DNA of 64,000 nucleotides, taken from positions 852,501-916,500 of the forward strand of contig NZ_CP061336.1 of the NCBI RefSeq assembly GCF_005473905.2. Reading direction: 5' to 3'. The stretch is from Ruminiclostridium herbifermentans (GTDB lineage Bacteria; Bacillota; Clostridia; Acetivibrionales; DSM-1351). Below, piece by piece: positions 38,164 to 47,362 of the stretch. The notes under the pieces are model-generated. The model was not told where the DNA came from. It was given only the letters and a program-made list of their open reading frames with translations, and did not search any database. Numbering within the stretch: the first letter of the stretch is position 1; every line of letters begins with the position of its first letter. The position numbers were made by a program, and so were the translations under genes.

Positions 38164-38317
38164 TACCTTTAAAATTTTTTTGATGACTCTATAAAAAGTA
38201 TATTCTTAAACAGGTTTTTAATAGTACCATTTTTATATTAAAATTAACGCTATGCTAATTATTTTTTACATATATTCTTTTGCTTTTATTTTTACTGCTT
38301 TTATTGATATAATATAA

Positions 38318-38470
38318 CGAGGCAATTAAATGTCATCCACTTCTATGAGTTGTGGATACCACTATGGTTTTCAGGCAGTGAGAATATCTCTTGCTTCGAT
38401 GAAATGCCGCTGAATGTAATGAAATTTTTCCACAATCGAAAAATTTCATTTTGAATCTAGGCATCATAAC
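38318..38470 (+). repeat. Structured repeat, copy 1
   Basis: First of five related copies in the window. Predicted fold: closing stem P1 CGAGGCAA (38318-38325)/TTGCTTCG (38391-38398); P2 ATCCAC (38335-38340)/GTGGAT (38352-38357); P3 CACT (38360-38363)/AGTG (38377-38380); then a perfect 3' hairpin TGAAATTTTTC (38420-38430)/GAAAAATTTCA (38438-38448), and the terminal motif GAATCTAGGCATCATAAC. Abuts copy 2 head to tail. No coding potential. Confidence 0.75.
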
Positions 38471-38626
38471 TAGGCAAGAAAATGTCCCACACTTCTATAA
38501 GTGGCGGGTACCGCTTTGGCTTTCAGGCGGTAAGAATTTTTTCTGCTCTGCTTACACGCCTCTGAATCCTAGTGAGATTTTTTCAATAAACGATAAATTT
38601 CATTTTGAATCTAGGCGTTTAATAAA
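38471..38626 (+). repeat. Structured repeat, copy 2
   Basis: Starts AGGCAAGAAAATG directly after copy 1 and ends GAATCTAGGCGTT. P2 is CACTT/AAGTG capped by CCC/GGG; P3 is ACCGC/GCGGT, where copy 1 has a different but still pairing stem, i.e. compensatory change. The 3' hairpin is weaker (AGATTTTTTC with GATAAATTTCA). Lies 70 bp upstream of the amidohydrolase gene. The remainder of the 38164-38697 spacer shows no gene. Confidence 0.75.
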
Positions 38627-44682: not shown

Positions 44683-44770
44683 TATATTTTATCACTACTC
44701 AAACTACTAACTGCTAATTGTTATTTATTAATCAGACAAATAATAAATTATAGCGTACTTAAATATATAA

Positions 44771-44920
44771 CGAGGCAAGAAAATGATCCCCTACTTCTAT
44801 AAGTGTAGGGAACCGCTCTGGTTTTCAGATGGTGAGAATATTTCCTGCCTCGATGAAATACCGATAATGTAATAAAATTTTTCTACAACTGCGAATTTTG
44901 TTATATCCAGTTGTTATAAA
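44771..44920 (+). repeat. Structured repeat, copy 3
   Basis: Single copy in the 332-bp spacer after the Lon-like gene. P1 CGAGGCA (44771-44777)/TGCCTCG (44846-44852); P2 CCCTAC (44789-44794)/GTAGGG (44805-44810); P3 ACC/GGT plus TCTG/CAGA (44812-44833); 3' AT-rich hairpin about 44871-44902; ends CCAGTTGTTATAAA, a degenerate form of the family terminus. Confidence 0.75.
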
Positions 44921-47037: not shown

Positions 47038-47072
47038 TATTTAGAGATGATAGGTTCAATACTTGAGATAAA

Positions 47073-47190
47073 CGAGGTATACCGCTTTGGCTTCTAGTTG
47101 GTGAGGAATTCCTTGCCTCGCATACATACCGCTGGTGTAATAAAATTTTCTGTGATCTAAAAATCTTATTATGAATCTAGGTATTATTAC
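47073..47190 (+). repeat. Structured repeat, copy 4 (P2 deleted)
   Basis: P1 is CGAGG (47073-47077)/CCTCG (47116-47120); the P2 arm is missing and the sequence passes straight to the P3 segment ATACCGCTTTGG. Ends GAATCTAGGTATTATTAC and abuts copy 5. Loss of one complete arm with the rest retained supports a modular RNA or DNA fold. Confidence 0.65.
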
Positions 47191-47362
47191 AAGAGAAAAA
47201 GAGTCCCTCACTTACACAAGTATTGAGAACAATTTGATTTTACCGGCAGTGAGAATATTTCCTGCCTCATTTACACCGTCCATGTAATAAAGCTTTTCTT
47301 TGATTGAAGAGTTAATGAAGATTTAATGAAGAGTTAAATTTTGACTCTAGGTGTTATAATAT
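47191..47362 (+). repeat. Structured repeat, copy 5 (degenerate)
   Basis: Begins AAGAGAAAAAGAGTCCC, keeps TACCGGCAGTGAGAATATTTCCTGCCTC, and ends GACTCTAGGTGTTATAATATT. P1 is decayed at its 5' side. An internal short direct repeat (GAAGAGTTAATGAAGATTTA) lengthens the 3' part. Lies just upstream of the HPr-like gene promoter (TTGATT 47372, TATAAT 47396). Confidence 0.6.

Follow-up and report, generated by a model that had tools for sequence, protein, structure and literature searches.

The tandem pair and its fold

This work concerns a family of short, folded repeats in Ruminiclostridium herbifermentans, examined from a 64,000 nt stretch of its genome (contig NZ_CP061336.1, positions 852,501–916,500 of the forward strand; hereafter the window, in whose numbering local coordinates are given). 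Sequence reading, self-comparison and a family profile place two head-to-tail copies of a ~150 nt structured repeat at 38313–38620, between a minus-strand gene with iron-dependent-repressor domains (the mntR of the initial annotation) and a plus-strand amidohydrolase gene. Both copies lie on the plus strand: copy 1 at 38313–38468 (profile match 1–155, 138.2 bits; a member of the own-genome blastn family), and copy 2 at 38466–38620 (profile match 2–152, 120.0 bits, with a family-profile limit at 38619). They share a 102 nt block of 75% identity at a spacing of 152 nt and a 38 nt block of 89% identity at a spacing of 154 nt, confirming the tandem pair proposed in the initial annotation. The first of the pair's three end motifs is an intact TATAA (38313–38317, read as a target or flank motif); the other two, at the right ends of copies 1 and 2, are the degenerate CATAA and TTTAA. 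As set out below, there is very little doubt that this repeat is a mobile DNA element.

The repeat has a two-part fold, consisting of (i) a 5' hairpin, P1, carrying P2, (ii) a linker, and (iii) a 3' hairpin, P4, ending in GTTATAA. In copy 1, the two sides of P1 are CGAGGC (segment A, 38318–38323) and GCTTCG (segment C, 38393–38398), identified from the fold and from A–C covariation. The P2 hairpin (ATCCAC...GTGGAT, 38335–38357) shows two-sided changes in six of its nine pairs. P4 (38403–38464; inverted repeat I2, 100%) has the base ATGCC/GGCAT and a long AT-rich stem (38418–38430/38438–38450). The P2 palindrome and the AT-rich 3' hairpin are both present as first annotated, while the terminal CTAGG motif listed with them, though present, is no separate signal: it is the 3' side of P4 (GAATCTAGGCGTTATAA). 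A further hairpin, P3 (CACT...AGTG, 38360–38380), is confined to Clostridia copies, and the same stretch is paired differently in the minimum-energy fold of copy 1. Finally, segment B (GGCAGTGAG, 38374–38382) is a possible alternative partner of segment C, with marginal covariation.

Both copies fold better than expected by chance. In shuffle tests (200 shuffles each), z was −3.58 for copy 1 as RNA, −4.13 for copy 2 as RNA and −4.13 for copy 1 as DNA, and no shuffle was as good in any of the three tests. Three alignments were used: A1, of 22 of 28 full-length copies; A2, of 33 copies; and A3, of 29 sequences from across the phylum, the latter two hand-picked for spread. A covariance model, R2, was built from 33 copies; no conclusion rests on its forerunner, R1, which held only five pairs. 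In A2, changes on both sides occur in 26 of 40 pairs, and none of 500 shuffles reaches the observed values; since these shuffles keep the relatedness of the copies, this 0/500 is not a probability. Paired cells make up 83.6% of A2, as against 36–51% when the partners are slid. The stems thus change in ways that keep their pairing, as the initial annotation had proposed from the tandem pair.

Across the phylum (A3), P1, the inner stem of P2 and the base of P4 pair above all 200 shuffles. The outer pairs of P2 (0.790; shuffled mean 0.798) and the inner B–C pairs (0.862; shuffled mean 0.855) do not exceed all shuffles. P3 has no phylum-wide support (0.616 against a shuffled mean of 0.630). The P3 exchange described earlier (CACT/AGTG against ACCGC/GCGGT) is therefore seen in the tandem pair and supported in A2, but unsupported beyond the Clostridia copies. 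Segment C (CCGCCTCGTT) has two potential partners, the left end A (AACGAGGC) and segment B (GGCGG), and in genome G419 all three segments have changed together (AACGAGCT, CAGCTGG, CCAGCTCGTT); B–C pairing in A3 equals the best shuffle only (0.855; shuffle mean 0.817). A switch of C between A and B is offered as a suggestion. The linker reads CGTTGAAA in 20 of the 29 phylum-wide copies, and CGTTGAAACG occurs in 13; CGTTGAAA is the usual form in genomes other than those of Ruminiclostridium.

Two features of the stems bear on whether they act as DNA or RNA. Firstly, G–T mismatches barely exceed A–C mismatches (100:82 in A2; 52:37 in A3 without P3); the tolerance of wobble pairs that a functional RNA should show is thus hardly apparent. 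Secondly, two copies (L017, G000:1565339–1565491, where G000 is the R. herbifermentans genome; L190, G376:C14:390–529) have a P4 that is perfectly or almost perfectly palindromic, as though one arm had served as the template for the other. Perfect palindromes are what hairpin-templated DNA repair is expected to produce.

Several variants of P4 were also observed. In six own-genome loci (L012, L029, L011, L021, L047 and L048), a stretch of ~70–90 nt (TCGAAAATAAAGTATGTACGAACAAGGTGCATTTTCGAGC...ACCATAAGTGGTTTTTGG) is nested within P4; this is a subfamily or a second small repeat. In Ruminiclostridium hungatei, one copy (L059:13713–13802) has lost P4 from between two TTGAA repeats. Conversely, P4-like hairpins stand alone at G331:C5:152628–152743 and elsewhere in G419 and G331 where only a right end is matched; most of them end in TTATAA. 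They could be leftovers of the element or a smaller mobile unit in their own right.

End motifs, empty sites and distribution

The end motifs are best seen in G419 and G331, for which motif, identity, direction and gene-context counts were made in 20 stretches of each genome. Letter-identical copies make up 10 of the 28 full-length copies in G419 and 7 of the 23 in G331, indicating that the copies there are young. "Full-length" here means a match reaching both ends, a selection that in itself favours intact motifs; among such copies the right end reads TATAA in 51 of 51 (28/28 and 23/23), and the left flank in 48 of 51 (28/28 in G419, 20/23 in G331). The three deviant left flanks, all in G331, read AATAA, AATAA and CATAA. 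That the left motif varies while the right is constant suggests that the left TATAA comes from the target, and that the right one is carried by the element itself. In tandem arrays, neighbouring copies share one motif, as if the new copy had entered the TATAA that ended the older one.

An exact empty site was found in G042. Filled sites at an ars-like operon (L040–L042) read ATAT-TTATAA-CGAGGC...GGCG-TTATAA-AGAAGG. The second copy of this operon in G042, comprising genes for an ArsP-type permease, an ArsE-like thioredoxin and a DUF2703 protein, reads ATAT-TTATAA-AGAAGG and carries no element. TATAA is therefore present on both sides of the element in the filled site, and once in the empty site. 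A duplication of TA only was ruled out as it misfits this empty site; as to target duplication at insertion more generally, the element itself may instead contribute the right motif. A second, looser empty site is provided by G419:C5:34952, where the element is absent from four genomes of the G419 family. Two of these relatives have the length expected for a single 5 bp motif, and two are 4 bases shorter.

The element is ~135–155 nt long (one end motif counted), gene-less, present in many copies and mostly intergenic. Overlap with mechanically called open reading frames is seen for 2 of 43 clusters in G000, 2 of 35 matches in G419 and 6 of 30 matches in G331. In the 4.82 Mb G000 genome, a blastn search with copy 1 gave 73 matches, some of which are P4 antisense self-matches. 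R2 (at most 150 candidates scored per genome) gave 145 matches at E ≤ 0.05 in G000, 53 in G419, 43 in G331 and 41 in G376. The further genomic copies anticipated by the initial annotation are thus abundant. Among the matches listed, 103 G000 copies and fragments were tallied (74 copies in fetched stretches plus 29 positions among the R2 matches), forming 69 clusters. Many G000 copies are decayed or truncated, while the young copies of G419 and G331 lie in mixed gene contexts.

Beyond these genomes, at least 16 of 60 genomes (own included) contain a match; at most 14 candidates were scored per genome, such that the counts are lower bounds. Two genomes without a match in that search, G002 and G007, were each matched once by the element portion of the query in another search. 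Of 398 genomes of the phylum, again including our own, 13 have a match at E ≤ 1e-6. The sole plasmid record matched is pSRC1 of Selenomonas ruminantium, which carries one copy. No exact match to either of two patterns was obtained in viral contigs, and blastn gave no match in phages. R2 matches are present in three genomes of the G419 family, while eight single-contig genomes of that family gave no match at E ≤ 0.001. The latter include G550, from the same genus as G331; the contrast between the 43 matches of G331 and the absence from G550 is the kind of patchiness expected of mobile elements.

A short variant of the element lies at about 5960–6090 of L040–L042, inside a region of ~4.8 kb that encodes the ArsP-type permease and ArsE-like thioredoxin and is 93–97% identical between genomes of two families. 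This region is a recent horizontal transfer, with the element as a passenger.

Within the window, the family profile finds three more copies, all on the plus strand, giving the five that were initially annotated. The third (44766–44918) has a LonB-like protease gene on one side and a sigma-70-type gene on the other; the matching place in G003 has no element, in a region of weak alignment. The fourth (47068–47187) is reduced in its 5' part, with P2 missing by eye, and the fifth (47192–47358) lies upstream of an HPr-like gene. None of the five matches an Rfam family at the gathering score. Further Rfam matches are sub-threshold only, the best being CsrC (E 0.0044; 21.7 bits against the 61 required).

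Direction, candidate enzymes and rival explanations

The copies of G000 are strongly oriented. With the chromosome arms assumed to divide at 2.4 Mb, 62 of 69 clusters run with replication. GC skew agrees with the assumed arms in 37 of 38 blocks, and the one discordant block, at 67 kb, contains one of the seven clusters oriented against replication. Among the 43 clusters whose neighbours were called mechanically, 12 of the 14 in divergent or convergent gene contexts run with replication; the downstream gene is co-directional with the element in 36 of the 42 that have a called downstream gene. The bias towards the direction of replication makes strand-coupled insertion plausible.

The search for a mobilizing enzyme covered Y1 transposases, TnpB and reverse transcriptases, mostly in draft genomes, and loss of the enzyme after amplification is possible. 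Y1 (PF01797) is found in 8 of 12 copy-bearing genomes, counting a broken fragment in G331; there is no match in G419, G041, G397 or G339. G000 has one Y1 gene. TnpB (PF07282) occurs in G000, G331 (three), G376 and G041, with a sub-threshold match in G550, and none in G419, G397 or G426. RVT_1 is found in G000 (two), G041 (one) and G419 (one), falls below the cut-off in G426, and is absent from G331, G376, G053, G397, G203 and G283. Two sets of candidates for an autonomous partner were rejected: the Y1 loci of the genus (best E 2.5 against the element profiles) and those of the 12 copy-bearing genomes (best E 0.063) both score at chance. Likewise, the 6 kb upstream of lone right ends in G419 and G331 contain no left end other than those of neighbouring copies.

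The motif at the ends, the empty sites, the dispersed copies identical to the letter and the patchiness of the distribution bear out the earlier proposal of a non-autonomous mobile element. How it moves is less certain. The most likely mechanism, we infer, is cutting of a folded strand and its rejoining 3' of TATAA. One strand would fold; an enzyme supplied in trans would cut it 3' of each TATAA, the left one belonging to the target and the right one to the element; and the cut strand would be joined 3' of a new TATAA. Tandem arrays would arise where that target is the TATAA ending an older copy. We consider it moderately probable that the family as a whole, gene-less, ~135–155 nt long and flanked by TATAA, moves in this way. 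A broader version is a tentative and rather doubtful extension: a widespread Bacillota class of folded-strand elements, in which a TTGAA linker serves both TATAA ends, segment C switches between A and B, and the enzyme is a resident host protein other than the known transposases.

Several observations weigh against folded-strand movement or parts of it. When truncated copies are added, the right TATAA holds in 35 of 35 copies in G419 and in 27 of 30 in G331, a loss in the latter; among the old copies of G000, 29 of 40 retain the left motif and 28 of 34 the right one. At the looser empty site, TATAA is found in none of the four relatives, two of which read TTTAA or TTTTA on that strand. The orientation bias is weak in young copies (19/28 with replication in G419 and 15/23 in G331, neither significant alone; 34/51 pooled, p 0.024), so the strong G000 bias may partly be selection. 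Short variants lack P2, and the G376 copies have two mismatches in P1. The linker CGTTGAAA occurs in only 10 of the 33 A2 copies, in neither copy of the tandem pair, and the proposal of an imperfect pairing between its TTGAA and the TATAA at either end is a reading of the letters. None of the Y1, TnpB and RVT_1 searches yielded a mobilizing enzyme, DDE transposases and recombinases lying outside them.

Young copies also carry the terminal inverted repeat TATAACG...CGTTATA, which a conventional miniature inverted-repeat transposable element (MITE) would fit too. A DDE transposase could recognize these ends, making the internal fold secondary, and the gene-less, cleanly inserted element is what such a transposase would leave. 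Yet DDE target duplications normally differ between copies, while here a single motif recurs; the TA-only duplication of the IS630 type fails at the ars site; the variable left and constant right motifs of three G331 copies misfit a duplication unless mutated later; and the internal helices covary. We regard this explanation as fairly unlikely. Mobilization by IS200/IS605 elements, with the single-stranded DNA moved by a Y1 TnpA that binds P2, accounts for the fixed short target and the constant, element-borne right motif, and Y1 and TnpB are indeed present in several hosts. Furthermore, P2 resembles the hairpins at IS605-type ends in G376 and G203 (it reads GTCCCCCACCTCTGCAGGTGGGGG in the Selenomonas copy; the left-end hairpin is GTCCTCCACCTCTTAGGTGGGGG in G376) as well as the hairpin at the L327 right end. 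The link drawn to IS200/IS605 by the initial annotation survives in this respect, as a resemblance in one host family; the transposases with matching ends that it pointed to did not emerge, Y1 loci giving chance scores only. The L327 right end was also compared with P4 by eye, and rejected as unlike it. Ends of the IS200-type copies examined in the genus are unrelated to the element, and the P2-less variants would lack the binding site. Mobilization by IS200/IS605 is disfavoured, and to us doubtful, mainly because G419 holds 28 recent copies with neither Y1 nor TnpB; G331, also rich in young copies, has only the broken Y1 fragment, and G041, G397 and G339 have no Y1.

The remaining explanations invoke RNA. 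The element might move through an RNA intermediate, reverse-transcribed for example by the enzyme of a group II intron present in the genome. A strong RNA fold, RVT_1 in G000, G041 and G419, and a direction bias like the one known from group II introns speak for this; G331 and G376 nevertheless hold young copies without RVT_1, and the mismatch ratios give little hint of RNA, leaving retrotransposition very improbable. The initial annotation also raised a new small RNA class; in the form considered here, a small or cis-acting RNA would serve the host and owe its dispersal to an unrelated process. In its favour are the covariation, the co-directional downstream genes of G000, and two overlapping terminator-like sites in copy 2 (shuffle average 0.2). 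Against it, promoter-like sites are at chance level (2 versus 2.5 expected), no Rfam family is matched at the gathering score, G–T barely exceeds A–C, the element is absent from a same-genus relative of a copy-rich genome, young copies lie in mixed gene contexts, and many G000 copies are decayed or truncated. The RNA class is thus unlikely, and we give it little credence; covariation in dispersed repeats need not imply a functional RNA. For folded-strand movement, an enzyme search and a direct test now become practical, given genomes rich in young copies, relatives that lack the element and an exact empty site.

Relation to known systems

By general criteria the element is MITE-like: short, without coding capacity, multi-copy, mostly intergenic, and with terminal inverted repeats and an empty site. 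No autonomous element sharing its ends was found among Y1 loci or upstream of lone right ends, the places searched. IS200/IS605 elements insert 3' of a fixed target of 4–5 nt, carry imperfect subterminal hairpins and show a replication-direction bias. Our element is similar in its fixed short 5' target, direction bias and P2-like hairpin; it differs in combining hairpins with a short terminal inverted repeat, in a P4 unlike the L327 IS605 right end by eye, and in a host, G419, in which no Y1 or TnpB was found.

The paper titles and opening lines of abstracts examined contain no description of this element, and a review of prokaryotic MITEs (PMC10969869) makes no mention of it under the terms looked for. 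Repetitive extragenic palindromic (REP) sequences and REPINs, associated with TnpA-REP, are described as short, palindromic, non-autonomous and present in many copies (PMC8266576, PMC3733652), all of which also holds for the element. REPs are, however, given as 20–40 bp with GTAG or CGTC tags (PMC3733652). The element is longer, at ~150 nt, and has TATAA as its motif, and 4 of the 12 hosts searched gave no Y1-family protein.

The nearest described kind, compared by description rather than by sequence, is bcr1–bcr3 of the Bacillus cereus group. These are described as MITE-like, with many intergenic copies and a repeated TTTAT motif, and are suspected to move by a mechanism like site-specific recombination (PMC6542083, PMC3446304). 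As far as these accounts go, structured ~150 nt repeats such as bcr1 have a possible mechanism named, and no enzyme. Like bcr1, the element is folded and intergenic, and has a five-base AT motif repeated at its ends; it differs in that the motif is TATAA and its hosts are other Bacillota. The family comprises folded, MITE-like repeats that have a fixed AT-rich target and occur, with young copies among them, in distant families of a single phylum.
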